Shown: positions 54,711-64,000 of the stretch, one piece after another
Position numbering within the stretch: the first letter of the stretch is position 1
Layout: each line of letters begins with the position of its first letter
Made by a program: the position numbers and the translations under genes
Origin: Flagellimonas pacifica
Lineage (GTDB): Bacteria; Bacteroidota; Bacteroidia; Flavobacteriales; Flavobacteriaceae
Length of the DNA: 64,000 nt
NCBI RefSeq assembly: GCF_900215465.1
Contig: NZ_OBEH01000001.1
Coordinates: forward strand, 124,001 to 188,000
Reading direction: 5' to 3'
Notes under the pieces: model-generated
Databases searched by the model: none
What the model saw: only the letters and a program-made list of their open reading frames with translations
What the model was told of the DNA's origin: nothing

Positions 54711-54744
54711 GCAATAAAGCCCTGAAATTGTTAATCTTCAGGCT
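54711..54744 (-). terminator. Weak terminator overlapping the CNNM/CBS gene stop
   Basis: On the minus strand AGCCTGAA pairs with TTCAGGGCT (one bulge) around a loop holding the TAA stop, followed by a short TTTATT. The 248-nt gap 54483-54730 otherwise shows no ORF, repeat or clear promoter. Confidence 0.35.
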
Positions 54745-56020
54745 GAACGTGAACACTTACCAAATCAATTTTGGTATTGGACACCTCTAAGATGCGGAAC
54801 GTGAAATTCTCTGTCTTTATTTCGGAGTCCAGCTCGGGTATTTCTCCTGTTTCACTCATGATCAAACCACCCAATGTTTCGTACTCTTCACTTTCAGGCA
54901 GTTCCAACTTATAATTTTCGTTGATGTAGTCCACTTCCAAACGGGCTGAAAACTTATATACATTTTCACTCAATTGTTCTTCATGTAGATCGGTACTATC
55001 ATGCTCGTCCTCGATCTCCCCAAACAATTCTTCTATAATATCTTCTACGGTCATAATTCCAGAAGTTCCACCGTATTCATCCAAAACAACGGCAATACTT
55101 TTGCGCTTTTTAGTCAAGACATTTAGAATTTCTTGAATAAGCATGGTCTCCGGAACAAATTCCACAGGCAACAAAATGCTTTTAATGGTCTTGGGTTTTT
55201 TAAACAGTTCATAAGAGTGTATGTAACCAATTATCTCGTCAATACTTTCCTTATAAACCAATATTTTGGAATAACCCGTTTCTGAAAATAACTTTGCTAG
55301 GTTTTTAGGGGTCTCGTCAATTTCTACGGCTGTAATTTCGGTTCTGGGCACCATAACCTCCCGAGCTTTTACCGCTGAAAATTCCAAAGCATTCTGGAAT
55401 ATCTGAATCTCGGAATCCACTTCATCTTCCTCTTCAACAGTTTCCATTTGTTCCGTGATGTAATCTCCAAGCTCCAATTTGGTAAACGCTAATTGCACCT
55501 CATCTCCATCGGTTTTAAAAAACACACGCAGGATAAAGTCGGAAACCTTGATCACAAACCACGAAATGAAGGAGAACAGGATATAAAAGAAATATGCGGG
55601 AATTGCAAAAACCTTCAGCAGCGTATTGGAATATATCTGAAAGAGTACTTTGGGCAAAAATTCTGCTGTGAGCAATATTATCAGTGTAGAAATAATTGTT
55701 TGGGAAAGCAGACTAAAATCCGTTAGCAAAGCATTCAAAAACTCCGATGTTGTAGGAAGTAGACTTTGAAACCATTCCATGAGTACATCTCCCATAAAAA
55801 GTCCGTAAATCACCAAGGCTATATTGTTGCCAATTAGCATGGTGGCAATAAATTTGGAAGGTTTTTCAGTAAGCCAGGTAAGTACCTTGGCAAAAAAACC
55901 TTCTTGCTTTTTTTCTATCTCAATATGAATCCTGTTGGCGGATACGAAGGCAATCTCCATTCCGGAAAAAAATGCCGAAAACAGCAGGGAAAGAATTATA
56001 ATAAGTAATGAGATGTCCAA
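54731..56020 (-). CDS. CNNM/CBS/CorC-domain membrane protein (hemolysin family)
   Basis: A 429-aa protein. An N-terminal DUF21/CNNM domain with about four membrane helices (1-190) is followed by a CBS pair (MVPRTEITAVEID, then IAVVLDEYGGTSGIMTVEDIIEELFG) and a CorC_HlyC transporter-associated domain. Such proteins are thought to handle magnesium or other cations; the hemolysin name is historical. Gliding protein GldE is a relative, but there is no gldD next to this gene, so I do not assign gldE. It is the last gene of the coaX-lptC operon. Confidence 0.9.
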   Translation of the reverse strand: MDISLLIIILSLLFSAFFSGMEIAFVSANRIHIEIEKKQEGFFAKVLTWLTEKPSKFIATMLIGNNIALVIYGLFMGDVLMEWFQSLLPTTSEFLNALLTDFSLLSQTIISTLIILLTAEFLPKVLFQIYSNTLLKVFAIPAYFFYILFSFISWFVIKVSDFILRVFFKTDGDEVQLAFTKLELGDYITEQMETVEEEDEVDSEIQIFQNALEFSAVKAREVMVPRTEITAVEIDETPKNLAKLFSETGYSKILVYKESIDEIIGYIHSYELFKKPKTIKSILLPVEFVPETMLIQEILNVLTKKRKSIAVVLDEYGGTSGIMTVEDIIEELFGEIEDEHDSTDLHEEQLSENVYKFSARLEVDYINENYKLELPESEEYETLGGLIMSETGEIPELDSEIKTENFTFRILEVSNTKIDLVSVHVQPED

Positions 56021-56027
56021 CTATTTG

Positions 56028-56228
56028 TTATTGGTTGCCCTTTTTTCGTTGTTCAAAACGTTTACGGTATTTTCTTCTAAAAAGAAACATTGCAATGGAA
56101 ACAACTGCAAAAAACATAAAAATGTATGTCTCTTTTGGATCAATGGCCCAAAGTGTTGCTATTTTATAGATAGAAACAACGGCAACTGCCAAGTATAAAT
56201 ATTCGGTGTATCTTAAAATTTTAATCAT
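56028..56228 (-). CDS. Small two-helix membrane protein
   Basis: A 66-aa protein with two transmembrane helices (about 9-27 and 36-50) and a very basic C-terminus (FRRKYRKRFEQRKKG). It starts 1 nt after the lptC stop and ends 7 nt before the CNNM/CBS gene. Tight coupling and plausible topology support a real gene. Family not recognised; similar small proteins occur at this position in other flavobacteria. Confidence 0.8.
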   Translation of the reverse strand: MIKILRYTEYLYLAVAVVSIYKIATLWAIDPKETYIFMFFAVVSIAMFLFRRKYRKRFEQRKKGNQ

Positions 56229-56229
56229 A

Positions 56230-56844
56230 CTATTCTTCTTCGTTAACCTTTTCTCTAATGGTCATTAACCCATATGTTTTATGGGCCTTAAAATAATTGA
56301 ACTCTCTATTAAGATCCAATCCCTCCCCATCCATTACCGAACCATCTTCTAGGTTGGTGTAAGTGAAGGCCTCCTCAGTAAAAATCCAATTGTTTGACTG
56401 ATCAAAAAATAATTGCGGGGTTTCCAATTTTTTTCCATCATGGGTTTCTATGACCACATTGCCCTGCAGGTCTATTAAATTGGTCTGGGAATAAATAATT
56501 CCATAATCTGCGGTTATTACACTTTTCTGATTTTTTTCATCAAAAAAGTCAACTTTCAATCCATCTGGAAAGGTTCTGTATTTAAAGCTCTGATTATCAA
56601 AATTTTCCGTGACAGGACTATTCAAAACAGCTATTACCTTGGTTTTTGATGAATCCAAGCTACTCATTTCTTTTGGAGATTCTGTATAGGTAAGCTTATA
56701 ATTTTCGGCAACCCATTGTGGGAAAACAGGCTTTACCGCCTCTTCTCCAACCCGTTTGTAGTTGTCCTTACAGGATATAAAAAGGATTGCCACGGTAAAA
56801 ACCGTGGCAAAACACTTTATTTTATTCTTAGATGTCCGTTTCAC
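56230..56844 (-). CDS. lptC: LPS export protein LptC
   Basis: LptC is the membrane-anchored periplasmic part of the LptBFGC exporter. The 204-aa protein has an N-terminal lipoprotein-like signal (VFTVAILFISC) and the jelly-roll LptC domain (DGLKVDFFDEKNQKSVITADYGIIY, LIDLQGNVVIETHDGKKLETPQLFFD). A lipobox-type anchor in place of a simple helix is common in Bacteroidota LptC. It precedes the small membrane protein and follows the TPR gene by 1 nt. Confidence 0.93.
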   Translation of the reverse strand: MKRTSKNKIKCFATVFTVAILFISCKDNYKRVGEEAVKPVFPQWVAENYKLTYTESPKEMSSLDSSKTKVIAVLNSPVTENFDNQSFKYRTFPDGLKVDFFDEKNQKSVITADYGIIYSQTNLIDLQGNVVIETHDGKKLETPQLFFDQSNNWIFTEEAFTYTNLEDGSVMDGEGLDLNREFNYFKAHKTYGLMTIREKVNEEE

Positions 56845-56845
56845 A

Positions 56846-58216
56846 TTACAAACTGGGCACTTTAACGCTACCGCCTACCCAACAATTAAAAGTAATTCTT
56901 TGTCCTGCCTTTCCAGAGCTGAATATCATCTCTTTAGTAGGTGCTTTTGCAGAATAACTTGCTGCAGATTTATTGGCCCTACCACTTAAAGATGGGTCTA
57001 CCCTACCTGCTTTTCTTGCCATCTCTGCGGCTTTCCAGTAGATTGCTCTTTTTTCAAAGGCTGTTGCTCCACAAGCATTGGCACTACCCGCATAAAGGTT
57101 TGCAATTAACAAATATGCTTTTCCGTTTGCCGGATTGGCATCAATTGCTTTTAAGGCATAACTCCTAGCTTGCGATTTGCTGCTTCTTCTAACGGTAGTC
57201 GCAATTTTATATAGAATGTTAGATTTTCTATGTGAATCTGTTTCCAATTCAACTGCCTTGTTAAAGTCCGCAATAGCGCCTTTACTGTCTCCTGATTTTT
57301 GCTTTAATACACCTCCGTACATATAGGCATCTGCAGAGGGATCTAAAGCTAGCTGAGCTTCAAATAGTTTTCTAAACATTGGGTCATCTGTACATTCTTT
57401 AGAAAACATCCTACCCACAGCTCTTTTTACCCAGTTTACGTCGCCCTTTTTCTCCTCATAGCTTTTCTCATAAAGCGGAATTAAGTTGCCACAATCTGCA
57501 AGGGCTCCTAATTTAGAGTCTATACTTCCGGCAATCTTACCATAAGATTTTGAGTTTACGGTTGCCGCTCTAAACTGTCTTTTTTCTTTGGATGTCATTG
57601 TTCCCAGTGAATCTTTAGGAAGCAACTTAGTAACAATGTTAGTCAGCTTTTTATTTTCCTCTTCCACCTTTTCAGTCACATTATCATAAACATCAAATAC
57701 TTCCTGAAGGTCCTTTTTACCAGTTCCGTGTAAATCTACCAAGGTTGAAAAGTATAGGTATAGGGCTTTAGGGTTTTTAAAGTTTTTTGCATCTTCTTTA
57801 AATGCATTTCCAAGCATATTATAGAGTTGTTCATCCGATGCCATCTTGTTGTCATAGGACAAAAGTGCCTTATCAATAGCAACTCCTGCTTTACTAAATT
57901 TCTTAGGGAAGTATTTTAGGCTATTATCATATAATGACATTAAATCCTGGATGTATCCATCTTTATCGGTTCCAGAGGAGTTCTTGATTTTATGGGAAAG
58001 GATTTTTTCTCCATAAGAAAAATTGGCCTTGTTTATATCTGGGCAACTTTCATAAACCATTTTCCATGGCTCGTATGCAGCATCGTAGTTTTTAACTTTT
58101 GCGTGTTCTGCGTAAATGGAAAGATTGGTCATACACTCAGGGTTTTGAGCTTGAGCCATACTTAATCCAATCGACATAAAGATCGCTATCATCGTTAAGT
58201 AGTTTTTCTTCGTCAT
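56846..58216 (-). CDS. Exported tetratricopeptide-repeat protein
   Basis: A 456-aa protein with a signal peptide (LTMIAIFMSIGLSMAQAQ). It has several TPR-like units, clearest in DAYMYGGVLKQKSGDSKGAIADFNKAVEL and the following SKSQARSYALKAIDANPANGKAYLL. The start is ATG at 58216; a longer frame adds ten codons without a better signal. It is part of the coaX operon between the outer-membrane protein and lptC. Function unknown; periplasmic scaffolding is possible. Confidence 0.87.
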   Translation of the reverse strand: MTKKNYLTMIAIFMSIGLSMAQAQNPECMTNLSIYAEHAKVKNYDAAYEPWKMVYESCPDINKANFSYGEKILSHKIKNSSGTDKDGYIQDLMSLYDNSLKYFPKKFSKAGVAIDKALLSYDNKMASDEQLYNMLGNAFKEDAKNFKNPKALYLYFSTLVDLHGTGKKDLQEVFDVYDNVTEKVEEENKKLTNIVTKLLPKDSLGTMTSKEKRQFRAATVNSKSYGKIAGSIDSKLGALADCGNLIPLYEKSYEEKKGDVNWVKRAVGRMFSKECTDDPMFRKLFEAQLALDPSADAYMYGGVLKQKSGDSKGAIADFNKAVELETDSHRKSNILYKIATTVRRSSKSQARSYALKAIDANPANGKAYLLIANLYAGSANACGATAFEKRAIYWKAAEMARKAGRVDPSLSGRANKSAASYSAKAPTKEMIFSSGKAGQRITFNCWVGGSVKVPSL

Positions 58217-58320
58217 CTTACTAATTTTAAAGTGGTTAATGTACAAATTTTAATGAAAAAATCATCTTAAAAGGAACATATATTGGTGGTTATTTATAGA
58301 TTTTTCAAAAATGGTTCTTA

Positions 58321-59586
58321 TTAATTTATTCTTCTTTTAACAAACCATCTGTCATTTAGAGATAATCCCACATTGATTTTAAGATAATCCTCCCTGATTA
58401 GGCTTGCATCTGTCGTTCCCCTTCTTCCCAACTCAAATCCTACATTCAAATTGGAAAAGCTATTCCCCAACGGCAACCCAAGTCCAAAAGTTATGCCAAA
58501 GTTATTTATCTCTTTGTTGTTCACTTCTAAACCTGTAACGTCATACTTAAGTCCTGCTCTATACGTAATCCTTTTGAAATAGCTGGAAAGTGAGGTATAC
58601 TCAGGAATAAAATATCCACCTAAAGAATAGGTGTTGGCGTCTTTGTAGGTCACATTTTCCAATCCTAAAAAACGGTTTTCAAAATCACTGAACTTTTGGA
58701 AACTATATTCTCCTCCAGCGAACCATTTTTTATCCTCTCCAAAGCCCAATCCAAGGGTAGTCCTTGTAGGTATCTTCAGTTCTGTATTTTTTAGGTTAGA
58801 GGCATCCAAATCAACATCAATGACCTCAACATCGGTACCATTTACCAAAGAAAACGAACCTAATCGTTCTGAATTTGTTGATATTAAGTTTCCTTGGGTG
58901 TTCACTAAAACAGAGGTATATAAAGTATACTTATCTTTTATGGTAGGGGTATAGTTTACCGCATAGTTAAAATCATAACCACTTATACGGGATTCTCTGC
59001 TATTCAAAGTTCCAAATTGCACGTCTTCCACACTTTGTATCCTTCTATACTCTAACGTTCCAAAATTAAAATTCGCAGTTACTCCCAGACTCAGGTTCTT
59101 TATTGGCTCATAGCCAAAGGATAGGTATGCTCTGTTAAGACCTCCTTCTCCAGTGAATGCGTTGGTTACCAATTGTCCATCAACATTTTGGCTCTCGGAA
59201 ATTAAATTGTACCCTACCGAAGATAAAGGCATAAGACCAAAGCCCATTCCTGCATTTTTTGCAATAGGAAATCCTATGGCCAAATAGTCTAAACTGGTTA
59301 CTGAAACGTTTTGTTTTTCCGTGAAATCTTCAAGCCTATATTGAGTATTGGAAATTCCTGCTGTATATACAGTCAACCGTAATTTAGAATAAGCGGCAGG
59401 GTTGTTCAAGTTAATATGGATACTATCGCCATACATGCTCAGCCCCCCCATCATTTGGTTTTCAACCGTACCATTGTTCCTAAGATCTCCAATTCCAAAA
59501 AATGAATATGGTGATATAGTACCGTTTTGCGCAAAAATGCCATGTGCAGTTACGCAAAAAAAAGCAATCAAAAATTTCTTAACCAT
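58321..59586 (-). CDS. Outer-membrane beta-barrel protein (PorV/FadL-like)
   Basis: A 421-aa protein with a signal peptide (LIAFFCVTAHGIFAQ). NGTISPYSFFGIGDLRNNG and LNNPAAYSKLRLTVY resemble the N-terminal plug region of the FadL/PorV-like barrels of Bacteroidota. The rest consists of alternating amphipathic strands. It starts directly next to the coaX stop (no gap). It could transport hydrophobic compounds or act in envelope assembly; neither is shown. Confidence 0.78.
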   Translation of the reverse strand: MVKKFLIAFFCVTAHGIFAQNGTISPYSFFGIGDLRNNGTVENQMMGGLSMYGDSIHINLNNPAAYSKLRLTVYTAGISNTQYRLEDFTEKQNVSVTSLDYLAIGFPIAKNAGMGFGLMPLSSVGYNLISESQNVDGQLVTNAFTGEGGLNRAYLSFGYEPIKNLSLGVTANFNFGTLEYRRIQSVEDVQFGTLNSRESRISGYDFNYAVNYTPTIKDKYTLYTSVLVNTQGNLISTNSERLGSFSLVNGTDVEVIDVDLDASNLKNTELKIPTRTTLGLGFGEDKKWFAGGEYSFQKFSDFENRFLGLENVTYKDANTYSLGGYFIPEYTSLSSYFKRITYRAGLKYDVTGLEVNNKEINNFGITFGLGLPLGNSFSNLNVGFELGRRGTTDASLIREDYLKINVGLSLNDRWFVKRRIN

Positions 59587-60315
59587 CTAGCGTTTATTGT
59601 ATTCCAGCAAGTAATTTAGCCCCTCCAAGAGAAATTTAGAATTCGCAAATATGGTATTTTTTAGCCGTTTAGCAAAAAAATGAGAGTCTCCGCCTGTTAA
59701 AATAACTGTTAAATCTTGAAAGCGAGTTCTATACTGACTTATTACGCCATCTAATTCTTGTAAAGCTCCATTAACAACCCCACTGTGCATGCTGGTTTGG
59801 GTTGAATTTCCAATAAAATCCAAAATATCTTCTAACTGCAACAGTGGAAGCTTTGCGGTTTGGTTGTGCAAGGCTTTATAGCGCATCCGTATTCCTGGAG
59901 AAATTGCACCTCCAACATACTCGCCAGAATCGTTGATCATATCGTAAGTTATACACGTTCCCGCATCGATAACCAAAGTGTTTTTTCTTGGATTTTGATA
60001 AAATGCGGCAGCGGCCAAAGCAATACGGTCCATACCCAAGGTATTTGGAGTGGCGTAACTATTTTTAAAAGGTATTTTTGATTCACTTGAAAGTACATGG
60101 ACCTTACAGAACAATGAAACAATGTCGCGTTCCTTTTTTTCTAAAGGTCCTACAGAAGAAATCAAAGCATGGTCAATCTTGGGGTATTGCTCAAAGAGTT
60201 CCTTTATTTTAGACAAAAAAATATTAGATTCCGAACCCTGGTCAAATATGATTGTGCCATTTTCGAAAACGGCGTACTTTATTAAGGTGTTTCCAATGTC
60301 GATAACCAAGTTCAT
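59587..60315 (-). CDS. coaX: Type III pantothenate kinase
   Basis: First step of coenzyme A synthesis. The 242-aa protein starts MNLVIDIGNTLIKYAVFENG, containing the phosphate-binding motif. GMDRIALAAAAFYQNP and TLVIDAGTCITYDMI are further ASKHA motifs of CoaX. I chose ATG at 60315 because the family begins at that point; the longer frame adds 15 unrelated residues. It heads the operon that runs to the CNNM/CBS gene, and is divergent from tRNA-Phe. Confidence 0.96.
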   Translation of the reverse strand: MNLVIDIGNTLIKYAVFENGTIIFDQGSESNIFLSKIKELFEQYPKIDHALISSVGPLEKKERDIVSLFCKVHVLSSESKIPFKNSYATPNTLGMDRIALAAAAFYQNPRKNTLVIDAGTCITYDMINDSGEYVGGAISPGIRMRYKALHNQTAKLPLLQLEDILDFIGNSTQTSMHSGVVNGALQELDGVISQYRTRFQDLTVILTGGDSHFFAKRLKNTIFANSKFLLEGLNYLLEYNKR

Positions 60316-60367
60316 ACTGCAAAGATGGAGAATTGAAAAAAAACCCTTGCCTTTTTTCAAGTTTTTG

Positions 60368-60416: not shown

Positions 60417-60489
<73 letters not shown>

Positions 60490-60496
60490 CTAGAAA

Positions 60497-60559: not shown

Positions 60560-61138
60560 TTATTCCACCTCAACAATCATTTCAATTTCCACTGCAATAT
60601 TACTAGGTAAGGATCCCATTCCAACGGCTGCACGAGCGTGTTTTCCTTTTTCACCAAAAACCGCCACCATTAAATCAGAGTATCCGTTGATTACTTTCGG
60701 ATGATCGGTAAAATCCGGAGTGGCATTTACCATGCCCAGTACTTTAACAATCCGTTTTACCTTGCTCAAATCGCCCAGCTCAGCTTTAAGTACTGAAAGT
60801 TGGTTGATGGCCGTAACCCTAGCTGCATAATATCCTTCTTCAATGGATAAATCCGCTCCAATCTTCCCAGTAATATTTTCTCCGTTAGACTGCAAAGGTC
60901 CCTTTCCAGCCATAAAAATCAAATTTCCAGTACGCACAGCATTGACGTAATTGGCCACAGGAGCAGAGGGTGTACTAAGCTCAATGCCCAATTCTTTTAG
61001 TTTGCCTTCTGGGTTGTAATCAGAAATTGCTTTTTCTTCAACAATATCCTCTTTGGGAGTTTCTTGTTTTTTCTGTTGCGACTGTTCGCAGGAAATCATC
61101 AGTACTAAAACAAGGATTCCCGAAAAATAGGTTTTCAT
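60560..61138 (-). CDS. RidA-family lipoprotein
   Basis: A 192-aa protein with a lipobox signal (LVLVLMISC, Cys17) and a RidA (YjgF/YER057c/UK114) domain. TGNLIFMAGKGPLQSNG starts the domain and GKHARAAVGMGSLPSNIAVEIEMIVEVE ends it, with an Arg at the position used by RidA enzymes. RidA normally hydrolyses reactive imines in the cytosol, so a lipid-anchored form is unusual. ATG at 61138 is the start of the signal peptide. It is the last gene of the exported cluster. Confidence 0.88.
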   Translation of the reverse strand: MKTYFSGILVLVLMISCEQSQQKKQETPKEDIVEEKAISDYNPEGKLKELGIELSTPSAPVANYVNAVRTGNLIFMAGKGPLQSNGENITGKIGADLSIEEGYYAARVTAINQLSVLKAELGDLSKVKRIVKVLGMVNATPDFTDHPKVINGYSDLMVAVFGEKGKHARAAVGMGSLPSNIAVEIEMIVEVE

Positions 61139-61167
61139 GGTCAAAAATTTATACGATTTGCATAAAA

Positions 61168-62400
61168 TTAAGCGTTTTCCAACACTTCCTTCACTCTTTG
61201 CGCAACGATTCTTTCCTGACCGGGAACCATCATCCATGTGGTAATGCCAATGGTATCTTTGTTTCCCACTGTGGCTATGGAAGGGTGACCATCCTTCAAT
61301 TTCTTTCGTGCATCTTCTGCCGTGATTTTCACCACATTTTCATCCCATGTAATCCTCAAAGAAGGCACATGGTTGGCATGGGGCGGTACATGAATTTCAG
61401 TTTTCACACCTTTTACCGACAAGGCACTATCACTAATCAGTTTTATCTGACTTTCCCATAGTTTCCATTCTGCATCATGGTCTTTTTGCAAATAAGTTTC
61501 CACAGCTGCCAGCATCCCCAACACTTCTTCTTTATTTACTTTCATACCTCTACCTATGGTAGTTCCCCTAGGAGGAGTATGCAACCTGGCTGCTTCTATA
61601 TGTTTACGTTTGCCCAACAGAAGTCCAGCACTCTGTGGCCCTCGAATTCCCTTTCCTCCTGAAAAAGCAACCAAATCAAACCCCATTTTGGTAAACTTAA
61701 ATAAGTTCTCCACCGGAGGTACATCAGCAGCACAATCAATAAAGGTTGGTATTCCATGTTTTTTACCCACGGCCACAAATTCTTCCCTTTTAATTTCCCC
61801 TTCTTCGGTATTCGCATTCAAAAACCAAAGCATTGCAGTATTCTTGTTGATGGCTTTTTCCAACTCTTTTGCTGTTTTTACCCGAACCAACTTACCACCA
61901 ACATTAGTCAAAGCTTGGGAATATCCAATATTATGCGCTTCTTGAAGGATTACCTCATTTTTAAGCCCCGTAGTGTCAGGAAGTTGAGAAACTTTACTGG
62001 TATCCATTCCGCATAAAACTCCAGCCATACCAATAGACATAGCTCCAAAAGCTCCTGAGGTTACCGTGGCATACTCACATTCCAATAATTCGGCGATACG
62101 CTCTCCAACTTTATCCTGAAGCTCATCCAAATCTACGTACTCTGTAGCTCCAAAAGTAATAGCAGACAATACATTATCTGACATCAAAGAACCCGTCATA
62201 GAGGTATAGGTGCCCGCAGCATTGATAAATGTCCGCAAACCTAATTCTTTAAAAAAATTACGAGACGCAGGTGTTTCAACTGCAGCATGCATCATTTGTG
62301 GGGTAAGCAATCCTGTTCCCACCAATCCACCAACAACAGGGAGACTGGAGAGTGTTTTTAACAATTTTCTTCTAGTAAGTTTATCTTGTGATTTTTTCAT
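61168..62400 (-). CDS. Tat-exported PLP-dependent enzyme of the SelA / ammonia-lyase-like fold
   Basis: A 410-aa fold-type I PLP enzyme with an N-terminal Tat signal (LTRRKLLKTLSSLPVVGG). FINAAGTYTSMTG and the Lys in SGGKGIRGPQSAG (Lys250) with Asp222 for the pyridine nitrogen are visible. It looks closer to D-glucosaminate-6-phosphate ammonia lyase and SelA-like proteins than to typical aminotransferases. Its substrate is unknown. Export by Tat fits a cofactor-loaded enzyme. It lies between two RidA genes, which suggests that it produces an imine or enamine intermediate. Confidence 0.85.
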   Translation of the reverse strand: MKKSQDKLTRRKLLKTLSSLPVVGGLVGTGLLTPQMMHAAVETPASRNFFKELGLRTFINAAGTYTSMTGSLMSDNVLSAITFGATEYVDLDELQDKVGERIAELLECEYATVTSGAFGAMSIGMAGVLCGMDTSKVSQLPDTTGLKNEVILQEAHNIGYSQALTNVGGKLVRVKTAKELEKAINKNTAMLWFLNANTEEGEIKREEFVAVGKKHGIPTFIDCAADVPPVENLFKFTKMGFDLVAFSGGKGIRGPQSAGLLLGKRKHIEAARLHTPPRGTTIGRGMKVNKEEVLGMLAAVETYLQKDHDAEWKLWESQIKLISDSALSVKGVKTEIHVPPHANHVPSLRITWDENVVKITAEDARKKLKDGHPSIATVGNKDTIGITTWMMVPGQERIVAQRVKEVLENA

Positions 62401-62412
62401 TTTTCTGTTTTT

Positions 62413-62880
62413 TTAATCTATTGCAGCAATACAATCAATCTCTACTAACGAGTCACCCGGCACTCCACCATAAACAGCTACCGTTGTCCTTACAGGTGGA
62501 TTCTCTCCAAAACGTCCCCTATAAACAGAATTCATGCCATGATAATCTTCCAAATCATGCAGGTACACATTTACCTTTAACACTTTGTCCATGGAAGAGC
62601 CATTCTTCACCAATTCTTTTTCTATCTCTTTCAGCACATGATCTGTATGTGATTTGATATCTCCTTCAAAATGCGCTCCTTTTCCAGCAACGTATAGTGT
62701 ATTGCCATGCTTCACCGCTCCAGAAAAAAGTGGAATCTTTTTGTCCTGTACAATCTCGCCCACCACTTCTTTTTTTGGTTTGGATTCTTTTCCCATGGCT
62801 TTTACCGTACCCACTCCTAATATGGCAGCAACGCCCATCCCTAATTTTTTAAATGCTGATCTTCTATCTGTTTTTTCCAT
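62413..62880 (-). CDS. Tat-exported RidA-family protein
   Basis: A 155-aa protein with a Tat signal (DRRSAFKKLGMGVAAILGVG) before a RidA domain. GNTLYVAGKGAHFEGDI, KVLKVNVYLHDLEDYHGMN and NPPVRTTVAVYGGVPGDSLVEIDCIAAI carry the family's catalytic Arg. It is one of two exported RidA proteins around the PLP enzyme. It probably clears reactive imines in the periplasm; substrate is inferred only. Confidence 0.9.
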   Translation of the reverse strand: MEKTDRRSAFKKLGMGVAAILGVGTVKAMGKESKPKKEVVGEIVQDKKIPLFSGAVKHGNTLYVAGKGAHFEGDIKSHTDHVLKEIEKELVKNGSSMDKVLKVNVYLHDLEDYHGMNSVYRGRFGENPPVRTTVAVYGGVPGDSLVEIDCIAAID

Positions 62881-62922
62881 TTTTAAATTTTTTGGTTTAT
62901 GATTCTTGTCTTCTTATCTACT

Positions 62923-63852
62923 CTACCACATTCGTTTTTTCAATAGTTCCTTAACTTGTTCCTTTGGAACAGGAAGTTCATCTATATGACTCCTTAACCA
63001 TTGAGAAAAGTCTTTTTCAATTTCTTCTGTCCATTTATTATCAATTTGTCCCGGGGTGTATTTCCCTTCTTTCAATCTTGATATTCCGAATAGATCCCTC
63101 AGTCTGACCACTTCTGAAGTTACAACCACTTGTTCCGCCAGATGGGATGGAATAAACATAACTCCTTCTTTTTTAGCCAAAACTATATCACCTGGAAGCA
63201 CCGTAGCAGCTCCCATCCGTATAGGTGTATTAATACTAAGCAGCATCACCTCGGTAAGAAAGGATGGGTCCCACCCCCTGACAAAAGCATTGAACCCTTC
63301 AATTTCCGAAAGTCCTTCCATATCCCGACTAGATGCATTGAACACCACTCCGTTTTTGGATTTGGCATAAATGGAATTCCCCAAATTGTCACCAATCAAA
63401 GTCCCGTTCACAATTTTTCCAAAGGCATCGGCCACATACACATCACCTTCAACCAACATATCAATGGGCCATGAATTGGTGTTACCTATTCTACCATCGG
63501 CTTTCCCTTTTTTCTTTATCTGGTCCGACACATCCGGGCGATTGGGCATGTATTGCACGGTGAGTGCACGACCAACAACGGGCACATCATCATGCAGTGG
63601 TTGCCAACCACTTTCAAACTGATTGTGATAGCCTTCGTTTCTCAATACACCCCACGCTTCTTCTATGGTTACATTTTTCATACGTTCCAGAACGTCATCG
63701 GCCACTTTAGGCCTGCCATCTTCAAATCGTTCCCCTGTCCATTGAGGTGTGAGGAATACCATCTGTTCTTTGGAAAGGGTTTGTGCGGTCACATTTCCAA
63801 AGGCAAACAACATAAGTCCCAAGGAAAAAATTAATCTATAGCTAAACTTCAT
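62923..63852 (-). CDS. Sec-exported RraA-family aldolase-like protein
   Basis: A 309-aa protein with a Sec signal peptide (LIFSLGLMLFAFGNVTAQ). The RraA-like fold (4-hydroxy-4-methyl-2-oxoglutarate/oxaloacetate aldolase relatives) shows in RALTVQYMPNRPD, GNLGNSIYAKSK-type text, FNASSRDMEGLSEI with the conserved Arg-Asp, and PGDIVLAKKEGVMFIPSHLAE. It is longer than RNase-E regulator RraA because of N- and C-terminal extensions. It probably acts on a keto acid. The chosen start is ATG at 63852. It is upstream of the RidA and PLP genes on the same strand. Confidence 0.87.
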   Translation of the reverse strand: MKFSYRLIFSLGLMLFAFGNVTAQTLSKEQMVFLTPQWTGERFEDGRPKVADDVLERMKNVTIEEAWGVLRNEGYHNQFESGWQPLHDDVPVVGRALTVQYMPNRPDVSDQIKKKGKADGRIGNTNSWPIDMLVEGDVYVADAFGKIVNGTLIGDNLGNSIYAKSKNGVVFNASSRDMEGLSEIEGFNAFVRGWDPSFLTEVMLLSINTPIRMGAATVLPGDIVLAKKEGVMFIPSHLAEQVVVTSEVVRLRDLFGISRLKEGKYTPGQIDNKWTEEIEKDFSQWLRSHIDELPVPKEQVKELLKKRMW

Positions 63853-63868
63853 TTTAAAAAATTTGGTT

Positions 63869-64000
63869 CTATTCATTTGATGTTTGTGTTTCTATAGGTT
63901 CATCTGAATTCTTATCCGGGTCTTTGTCTCTCCACCAGGTTGCCAAGGAGGATCCTGAAATGTTCATCCATGGGCCAAAAACGGCTGGTGCCAATCCAAT
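63869..64000 (-). CDS. C-terminal fragment of a probable membrane protein
   Basis: The last 43 codons of a gene entering from the right edge. The visible end is IGLAPAVFGPWMNISGSSLA, then TWWRDKDPDKNSDEPIETQ to a TAG stop at 63869. A hydrophobic stretch followed by a short charged tail fits the end of a membrane transporter, but the family cannot be named. The stop is 16 nt before the RraA start, so it is probably cotranscribed with the exported RidA/PLP/RraA cluster. Confidence 0.6.
   Translation of the reverse strand: MGLAPAVFGPWMNISGSSLATWWRDKDPDKNSDEPIETQTSNE

Follow-up and report, generated by a model that had tools for sequence, protein, structure and literature searches.

A conserved set of exported enzymes in Flagellimonas pacifica suggests an extracytoplasmic route for amino-sugar breakdown

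The window analysed here is a stretch of 64,000 nucleotides from Flagellimonas pacifica (Flavobacteriaceae; assembly GCF_900215465.1, contig NZ_OBEH01000001.1, positions 124,001 to 188,000). At its end lie four adjacent minus-strand genes, which encode a RidA-family lipoprotein, a pyridoxal phosphate (PLP) enzyme and a second RidA protein, both with twin-arginine translocation (Tat) signals, and an RraA-like protein with a Sec signal. They belong to an operon that crosses the window edge and make up its downstream half, so that only these last four genes and the tail of a transporter gene are inside. The products of the operon almost certainly form a conserved exported module that acts on one class of substrate. 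This module probably breaks down N-acetylated 2-amino aldoses outside the cytoplasm, by an oxidative route without phosphorylation; among these sugars N-acetylglucosamine (GlcNAc) is the most likely, and other epimers are possible. The original prediction had proposed a periplasmic catabolic pathway in which the PLP lyase deaminates its substrate, the RidA proteins clear the imine and RraA splits the keto acid. Our results support an exported module of this kind, with an enamine or imine made by the lyase and hydrolysed by RidA, and with an RraA-type class II aldolase that is able to act downstream. Overall, the prediction stands in part: the location and the RidA logic hold, and the half of the pathway formed by the dehydrogenase and the deacetylase lay outside the window.

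Gene organization and export signals

Translation of the window confirmed the four open reading frames (ORFs) on the minus strand, and the four proteins scored above the cut-offs of PF14588/PF01042, PF03841/PF00266, PF01042 and PF03737, respectively. Together with conservation among homologues, this bears out the earlier description of four adjacent genes with lipobox, Tat, Tat and Sec signals and small gaps; the "probable membrane protein" placed upstream of them is a BASS-family transporter (PF01758). The genes are the following, those beyond the window edge being given as G000:C5 coordinates.

60560..61138, minus strand: RidA-family lipoprotein, 192 residues (PF14588, 77.2 bits; PF01042, 52.2 bits; closest solved relative 3d01)
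61168..62400, minus strand: Tat-exported PLP enzyme, 410 residues, DgaE/SelA-like, Schiff-base Lys250 (TIGR01437, 201.5 bits; structure model)
62413..62880, minus strand: Tat-exported RidA, 155 residues (PF01042, 77.6 bits)
62923..63876, minus strand: Sec-exported RraA-like protein, 317 residues (PF03737, 64.1 bits; aligns with 3noj)
63869..64000, minus strand: 3' end of the BASS-family transporter gene (PF01758, 146.7 bits; PanS-like); full gene G000:C5:187869-189008, minus strand, extending to the equivalent of window position 65008
G000:C5:189070-190317: amidohydrolase gene, beyond the window edge
G000:C5:190330-192099: gene of a GSDH-domain dehydrogenase fused to cytochrome c, beyond the window edge
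G000:C5:192452-193180: CBM9 lipoprotein gene, beyond the window edge

Read 5' to 3' on the minus strand, the order is CBM9 lipoprotein, dehydrogenase-cytochrome c, amidohydrolase, BASS transporter, RraA-like protein, Tat-RidA, Tat-PLP enzyme and RidA lipoprotein. From the dehydrogenase gene onward the intergenic gaps, calculated with the listed ORF starts, are 12, 61, -8, 42, 12 and 29 bases; on the upstream side, 352 bases separate the dehydrogenase gene from the CBM9 gene. For the RidA lipoprotein, the listed ORF of 225 residues, which extends to 61237, begins too early; the ATG at 61138 is preferred because the signal peptide and the lipobox follow from it.

The RidA lipoprotein carries the lipobox MKTYFSGILVLVLMISC, the PLP enzyme the twin-arginine signal LTRRKLLKTLSS, the shorter RidA the twin-arginine signal DRRSAFKKLG, and the RraA-like protein a Sec signal with an AQ site. 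Beyond the window, the amidohydrolase has a Sec-type signal, and the dehydrogenase and the CBM9 protein have lipobox-like signals. The arginine pair is kept in all 90 full-length homologues of the PLP enzyme (the window enzyme included) and in 56 of 57 homologues of the Tat-RidA. A Tat heuristic was positive for 75/77 PLP and 53/57 RidA homologues versus 24 of 558 other neighbouring ORFs, and a lipobox heuristic for 58/64 RidA lipoproteins versus 131/558, these counts omitting ORFs cut at the locus start or scoring below 100 bits. Hydrophobicity alone was dropped as a signal detector, being positive in 368 of the 558 control ORFs; since this test does not discriminate, the Sec signal of the RraA-like protein rests on its own sequence and on an N-terminal extension, its Pfam match beginning at residue 78. 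The genome has a TatC gene. The PLP protein shows approximately 44 additional N-terminal residues when compared with Salmonella DgaE (query residue 47 aligns with chain residue 3). The genome also encodes an ordinary RidA, which has no room for a signal peptide because its Pfam match fills 118 codons of an open frame of 129 residues.

Distribution and co-occurrence of the gene set

A scan seeded with exact peptides of the window's PLP enzyme, a choice that favours close relatives, recovered 78 loci, mostly from Flavobacteriaceae; near relatives are Flagellimonas/Allomuricauda, whose PLP enzymes are up to 97% identical. Counts out of 52 refer to the 52 loci (of 79: L005 and L007-L084) covered by at least 19 kb, that is, 51 plus the window's own, and an absent gene is one not found in the stretch covered. 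The amidohydrolase is present in 52/52 of these loci, at least one RidA in 51/52 and the dehydrogenase in 48/52.

A second sample consisted of 199 genomes of the family taken evenly and irrespective of the module, and overlaps in species with the seeded loci. With bit thresholds set in this analysis, the PLP enzyme (at least 688 bits) and the amidohydrolase (at least 514 bits) occurred in the identical 12 of these 199 genomes, the next amidohydrolase match outside them reaching 47 bits. The GSDH protein (at least 695 bits) occurred in the same 12 and in one more genome, G050; at most 9 amidohydrolase and 6 GSDH candidates were scored per genome, so that copies can be missed. Under independence, an exact overlap of 12 genomes in 199 would have odds of about 1 in 10^18.8, although clustered genes are not independent draws. 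The common distribution of the three proteins rejects an artefact or a chance adjacency. Co-occurrence in relatives had been named beforehand as the test of the original prediction, and the gene set does recur, both in these 12 genomes and in distant Bacteroidota.

Within the genus, a full-length relative with at least 75% identity was found in 12 of 71 genomes; the module is thus accessory. For this reason, an insertion beside a tRNA gene is possible: a tRNA-Phe gene (60417-60490, plus strand) lies directly 3' of the operon in convergent orientation, and separates it from a downstream gene resembling CoaX by eye. Farther on, positions 54731-60360 (minus strand) hold housekeeping-like neighbours, which by eye resemble a CBS-domain transporter, an LptC-like lipoprotein, a TPR protein and the CoaX-like kinase.

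In the phylum, relatives scoring at least 400 bits were present in 8 of 395 genomes, six of them from other families (at most 4 candidates per genome were scored). Seven further stretches of 20 kb, six of them from these other families and one, from G080, belonging to the window's own family, show the same gene set in rearranged form. The copies of the PLP and amidohydrolase genes are equal in all seven (3/3, 2/2, 2/2, 2/2, 1/1, 1/1 and 2/2; 13 and 13 in total), and RraA and BASS are, over the 20 kb covered in each, either single-copy or absent, always together. We infer that the deacetylase and the lyase catalyse consecutive steps that were duplicated for different epimers, with the later steps shared. 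A protein similar to the SMP-30/gluconolactonase-like copy of L068 (PF08450) is present in six of the seven.

The original prediction had also pointed to SusC/SusD genes beyond position 64000. In about 25 kb beyond the window edge, judged by eye, the largest ORF has 589 residues and none is as long as a SusC gene would be, but genes of SusC/SusD type are neighbours of the module in some relatives: L133 and L136 hold a SusC-size/SusD pair, and L136 also has a FecR regulator. In addition, a truncated PLP gene (L133:6059-6739, a fragment of 226 residues that is included in the copy counts above) was seen in G437, and a short amidohydrolase remnant (G080:C1:1971380-1971535) lies between the dehydrogenase and PLP genes of G080; both represent decay inside duplicated modules. 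A further exported-looking amidohydrolase (PF01979; NagA-like by eye) is encoded near the duplicated G080 module, at a distance of a few kb (L137:17588-18793).

The PLP enzyme

In NCBIfam, the PLP enzyme scores best against the DgaE ammonia-lyase subfamily. Its structure model (pLDDT 85.5) matches 7lc0 (DGL) with a TM score of 0.78 and 8t7j (Cap15) with 0.79, and both are tied as top fold matches (E 5.6e-30 each). The Schiff-base lysine K250 is present in 90/90 homologues; residue counts throughout omit ORFs shorter than set limits, which range from 130 to 380 residues, and those for this enzyme comprise 89 homologues, or 90 with the window enzyme. Membership of SelA (selenocysteine synthase) was rejected, at 36.7 versus 267.9 bits. 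Strict membership of DgaE was likewise rejected, the curated cut-offs not being reached and the phosphate-site arginines not being conserved.

According to the accessible part of PMC9529869, docking places the substrate phosphate of DgaE near Arg-301, Arg-332 and Arg-346 and its carboxylate near Arg-226, whereas His-163 protonates C3; the authors conclude that the H163A variant releases free enamine, and note that RidA breaks down such enamines. In the window enzyme R301 corresponds to S347 in two alignments, R332 to V378 or N380, and R346 to W389 or G394, and among the 90 homologues an arginine occurs at position 347 in 2, at 378 in none, at 380 in 1, at 389 in none and at 394 in 1. The carboxylate residue R226 corresponds to K264, which is Lys or Arg in 85/89 homologues. 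The equivalent of His-163 is either N197 and T198 or a gap, in a loop whose alignment is uncertain. From these comparisons the enzyme probably takes an unphosphorylated 2-amino-aldonate, since the phosphate arginines are replaced, and probably releases the enamine, since the proton donor is missing as aligned. A lyase of this kind would therefore explain the presence of RidA partners.

Given that 8t7j ties with 7lc0, it could be argued that the PLP enzyme, like Cap15, is an oxidase or oxygenase that depends on oxygen, and that the operon serves the periplasmic oxidation of a beta-hydroxy-alpha-amino acid derived from a sugar; Cap15 itself acts on a beta-hydroxy-alpha-amino acid and is grouped with PvdN (PMC7497351, accessible part). 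We consider this unlikely: the sequence is nearer to DGL than to Cap15 (131 versus 109 bits; with a profile, 185 versus 155), the best NCBIfam match is a lyase subfamily, and the presence of RidA in all but one of the 52 loci is in keeping with a lyase that releases an enamine.

DgaE-like proteins of a second group, less closely related, were also detected (L131:10235-11869, minus strand; G622:C12:84464-85696; G624, G585 and G638), with 34-39% identity and open frames of 523-573 residues; a twin-arginine start and an additional C-terminal domain are seen in the L131 copy.

RidA proteins, RraA and transporters

In the RidA lipoprotein Arg169 and Glu184 are each invariant in 70/70 homologues, and in the Tat-RidA Arg131 and Glu147 in 66/66; we take these residues to be the catalytic Arg105 and Glu120 of E. 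coli RidA. Both proteins thus show the family matches and the conserved residues of RidA imine deaminases, and are predicted to have this activity. It seems fairly probable that the exported RidA proteins act on the enamine released by the PLP enzyme.

The RraA-like protein retains the residues of class II pyruvate aldolases, with Asp163 in 51/52 and Arg184-Asp185 in 52/52 homologues; the exact spacing of this Asp...Arg-Asp motif is presumably that of the metal-binding and catalytic residues of the aldolases. Roles for Arg-123 and Asp-124 are described for the HMG/CHA aldolase of the RraA superfamily, and most homologues with such motifs are considered likely class II pyruvate aldolases (PMC5065237, accessible part). 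A function as a regulator of RNase E was rejected in view of the signal peptide, the aldolase residues and the scores (26 versus 136 bits on RraA). Whether RraA splits the resulting keto acid, as had been proposed, we regard as an even question. RraA is optional, being present in 33/52 loci and not found in 19, and thus aldol cleavage would not be obligatory.

The BASS gene is present in 32/52 loci. The two genes are linked, with both in 30 loci, neither in 17, RraA only in 3 and BASS only in 2 (Fisher 7.5e-9, for loci that are not independent). Because the presence of RraA tracks that of BASS, the transporter may import a product of RraA, for example pyruvate. Transport of pyruvate is known for BASS proteins, and the PanS family name, matched by this protein, refers to ketopantoate transport. 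Where BASS is missing (20 loci), a TRAP transporter was found in 4 and a DUF5690 protein in 10, and neither in the other 6; SMP-30, TRAP, PIG-L and DUF5690 were counted from a greedy set of non-overlapping ORFs, and copies may be missed. These 10 DUF5690 loci are all from Arenibacter, with the gene several kb away or not contiguous and perhaps unrelated; perhaps its product is a transporter. The Arenibacter loci L013-L018, L020-L022, L034 and L080 hold reduced modules, with no BASS, RraA or Tat-RidA in the stretches covered and with DUF5690 downstream. The window's genome also encodes a member of the KDPG aldolase family, which permits the use of 2-keto-3-deoxygluconate (KDG) but is general.

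The upstream enzymes and the nature of the substrate

The dehydrogenase combines a GSDH domain (PF07995, 49.3 bits) with a cytochrome c domain. The best folds for the GSDH domain are AA12 quinoprotein dehydrogenases (6i1q, 6i1t and 6h7t rank 1-3; TM 0.73-0.75 by target length), followed by pyrroloquinoline quinone (PQQ) and aldose sugar dehydrogenases. The modelled domain thus has an AA12/GSDH-type fold, and PQQ binding is predicted.

The amidohydrolase scored above the curated cut-off of PRK09237, "amidohydrolase/deacetylase" (445.1 versus 371 bits), and its residues H86, H88, K189, H244 and D306, presumably the metal ligands of the superfamily, are each present in 82/82 homologues. The nearest solved relatives are 8je0 (an amidase), 2ogj, 8wzy and 2ics, and the D-aminoacylase 1rjp matches weakly (0.00069). 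Members of COG3964 reportedly hydrolyse acetyl-(R)-mandelate and similar substrates, as Ornelas et al. are said to have found in 2013; D-glucosaminate likewise has the R configuration at C2. In L031 and L060 a gene of the PIG-L family (GlcNAc de-N-acetylase; Pfam match obtained on one of the two) is inserted just before the amidohydrolase gene, and the L031 protein has a Tat-like start. We take the PIG-L family to be the CE14 family of the Natrarchaeobius deacetylase discussed below.

The original prediction had left the substrate as an amino acid or an amino sugar acid. An amino sugar oxidised outside the cytoplasm becomes likelier than a free amino acid or hydroxyproline, because the amidohydrolase, the dehydrogenase-cytochrome c and the CBM9 lipoprotein continue the operon beyond the window. 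Taken alone, the PLP, RidA and RraA logic would also permit a periplasmic pathway for a free amino acid (D-serine, D-threonine, hydroxyproline) or for an amino sugar acid that is already present as such, to which the other genes would be incidental, and OngC of Pseudoalteromonas prydzensis deaminates D-serine and D-threonine too (PMC9537276, accessible part). We find this unlikely in view of the exported amidohydrolase of all 52 loci, the sugar dehydrogenase-cytochrome of 48 and the matched PLP/amidohydrolase copies in 7/7 further loci; to use a free amino acid, a cell would require no deacetylase and no aldose dehydrogenase.

An N-acetylated 2-amino aldose is therefore the probable substrate, and its identification as GlcNAc is tentative. 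As a sub-case with the same chemistry, the sugar could be another one, such as N-acetylated fucosamine, quinovosamine, mannosamine or galactosamine (FucNAc, QuiNAc, ManNAc, GalNAc), or one derived from muropeptides, and not the GlcNAc of chitin. The nearest fold of the dehydrogenase is AA12, a family with a preference for sugars like L-fucose and glucosone; the PLP and amidohydrolase genes, present in equal multiple copies in 5/7 loci, suggest more than one epimer; and chitin genes were not seen beside the module in the stretches read. Positive evidence was found for none of these sugars, and the PIG-L genes of two loci together with a haloarchaeal parallel in chitinase clusters lean to GlcNAc, so that another amino sugar is somewhat unlikely.

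Proposed pathway

From the protein families and the gene associations we infer a pathway, including its order of steps, the direction of the aldolase and the cargo of the transporter, as follows. The lipoprotein dehydrogenase of AA12/PQQ type would oxidise C1 of the sugar and pass the electrons through its own cytochrome c to the respiratory chain, and an SMP-30-type lactonase, where present, would open the lactone. The exported COG3964-type amidohydrolase would then deacetylate the aldonate, and the Tat-exported DgaE-like enzyme would eliminate the C3 hydroxyl of the free 2-amino-aldonate and release an enamine. The two exported RidA proteins would hydrolyse the enamine or imine to a 2-keto-3-deoxy acid (KDG or an epimer) and ammonia. 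Finally, the keto acid may be imported by BASS or TRAP, or may first be cleaved by RraA to pyruvate and an aldehyde.

Several observations weigh against this pathway or against parts of it. The amino-sugar substrate is deduced from protein families. The PLP enzyme stays under both curated DgaE cut-offs (201.5 versus 385.3 bits for TIGR01437, and 166.8 versus 600 bits), the oxygen-dependent Cap15 is equally near in fold, and the His-163 loop aligns with a gap, a histidine being found at position 197 in 10/90 and at 198 in 1/90 homologues. PqqC was not found in the genome, by a search that gave no match in any of 14 control genomes either. The lipobox result is mixed for GSDH (32/65) and CBM9 (26/46), with the heuristic background of 131/558. 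GSDH was not found in 4/52 loci, and among the matches listed none lies near the PLP gene of G032; L075 shows no RidA; 6/52 loci show none of the three transporter types; and the SMP-30 protein was found in only 14/52 loci, the window's own not among them. One distant locus abuts a GH32 gene, which is not suggestive of chitin, and the chitin link given by GH20 is weak (12/12 carriers versus 124/187 others; one-sided p 0.009). G050 has a CBM9-GSDH-TRAP cluster (L139:7044-12669) with no lyase or deacetylase; perhaps this is a simpler oxidise-then-import version, and the TRAP genes next to the CBM9-dehydrogenase are consistent with a dehydrogenase that makes an acid product.

Comparable chemistry has been described inside cells, where RidA is known to protect PLP enzymes from enamines. 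There is a nearly even chance that various Bacteroidota run most of the breakdown of an amino sugar, from C1 oxidation to RidA hydrolysis and in many cases aldol cleavage, outside the cytoplasmic membrane, sparing their cytoplasmic PLP enzymes the enamine and importing only keto acids. If so, the module would give Bacteroidota a hitherto unrecognised way to use the carbon and nitrogen of amino sugars, in which electrons are captured and ammonia is released outside the cytoplasm, and functions could be given to gene sets otherwise named only by family (SelA-like, amidohydrolase, RraA). Two exported RidA proteins with an exported PLP lyase that lacks the enamine-quenching histidine also suggest a test of RidA catalysis away from the PLP pool.

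Comparison with known systems

The PLP enzyme resembles DgaE (PMC9529869) in its fold, Schiff-base lysine, basic carboxylate-binding residue and expected beta-elimination, and differs in its Tat signal, its RidA partners and the lack of conservation of the phosphate-site arginines and His-163. Similarly, the RraA-like protein shares with the HMG/CHA aldolase (3noj; PMC5065237, accessible part) the catalytic and metal-binding Arg-Asp pair and the upstream Asp, but carries an N-terminal signal peptide. The dehydrogenase has the beta-propeller fold of AA12 and aldose-type PQQ sugar dehydrogenases, from which it differs in the cytochrome c fusion and the lipobox-like signal.

We know of no RidA partner for PvdN of Pseudomonas. 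PvdN, according to the titles of the works cited for it, is a PLP enzyme that works in the periplasm, although in pyoverdine modification and not in catabolism. The original prediction had considered an extracytoplasmic PLP/RidA pathway unusual; for the PLP enzyme alone PvdN is a precedent, while the open-access titles and abstracts consulted, a scope outside which most subscription journals fall, contained no exported PLP/RidA or PLP/RidA/RraA pathway and no periplasmic glucosaminate pathway.

The accessible part of PMC9537276 describes the ong cluster of Pseudoalteromonas prydzensis, which acts on GlcNAc1A, a product of lytic polysaccharide monooxygenases (LPMOs), with a deacetylase (OngB), a PLP deaminase (OngC), a KDG kinase and an essential RidA (OngD) whose role is stated there as unknown. 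The window system appears to work like ong, with deacetylation of an N-acetyl-aldonate, PLP-dependent deamination to KDG without phosphorylation and a RidA-family protein, which in ong is obligatory. Judging from the descriptions, folds, signals and families, it is not a member of that system: OngB and OngC are predicted to be cytoplasmic, OngC is of fold type III whereas the window enzyme has the DgaE/SelA fold, OngB is of D-aminoacylase type whereas the amidohydrolase is of COG3964 type (PRK09237), and the ong pathway begins with LPMO products, GlcNAc1A being taken up through an SSS transporter, and its cluster is listed without a dehydrogenase or RraA in that part of the paper. Regarding the first step, acetic acid bacteria oxidise glucosamine, mannosamine and galactosamine to amino-aldonates (PMC9171043, accessible part).

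A closer parallel in gene families than ong, as far as the comparison goes, seems to be the GlcNAc route predicted for Natrarchaeobius haloarchaea, hypothetical according to its authors, which comprises a CE14 deacetylase, a glucose dehydrogenase, a kinase and a DgaE-like lyase (PMC12343721, accessible part). The common features are the CE14 deacetylase, the glucose dehydrogenase, the putative DgaE-like lyase and, in addition, a RutC-family gene, all but the deacetylase being drawn there in chitinase clusters. The haloarchaeal route differs in having a kinase and a 6-phosphate substrate, in placing deacetylation before oxidation and in that RutC is read as a repressor; the words "RidA" and "periplasm" are absent from the accessible text of that paper. 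This parallel supports the amino-sugar substrate proposed here, and narrows what is new in the window system to its location, the absence of a phosphorylation step and the presence of three further components, the amidohydrolase, RraA and the transporter.

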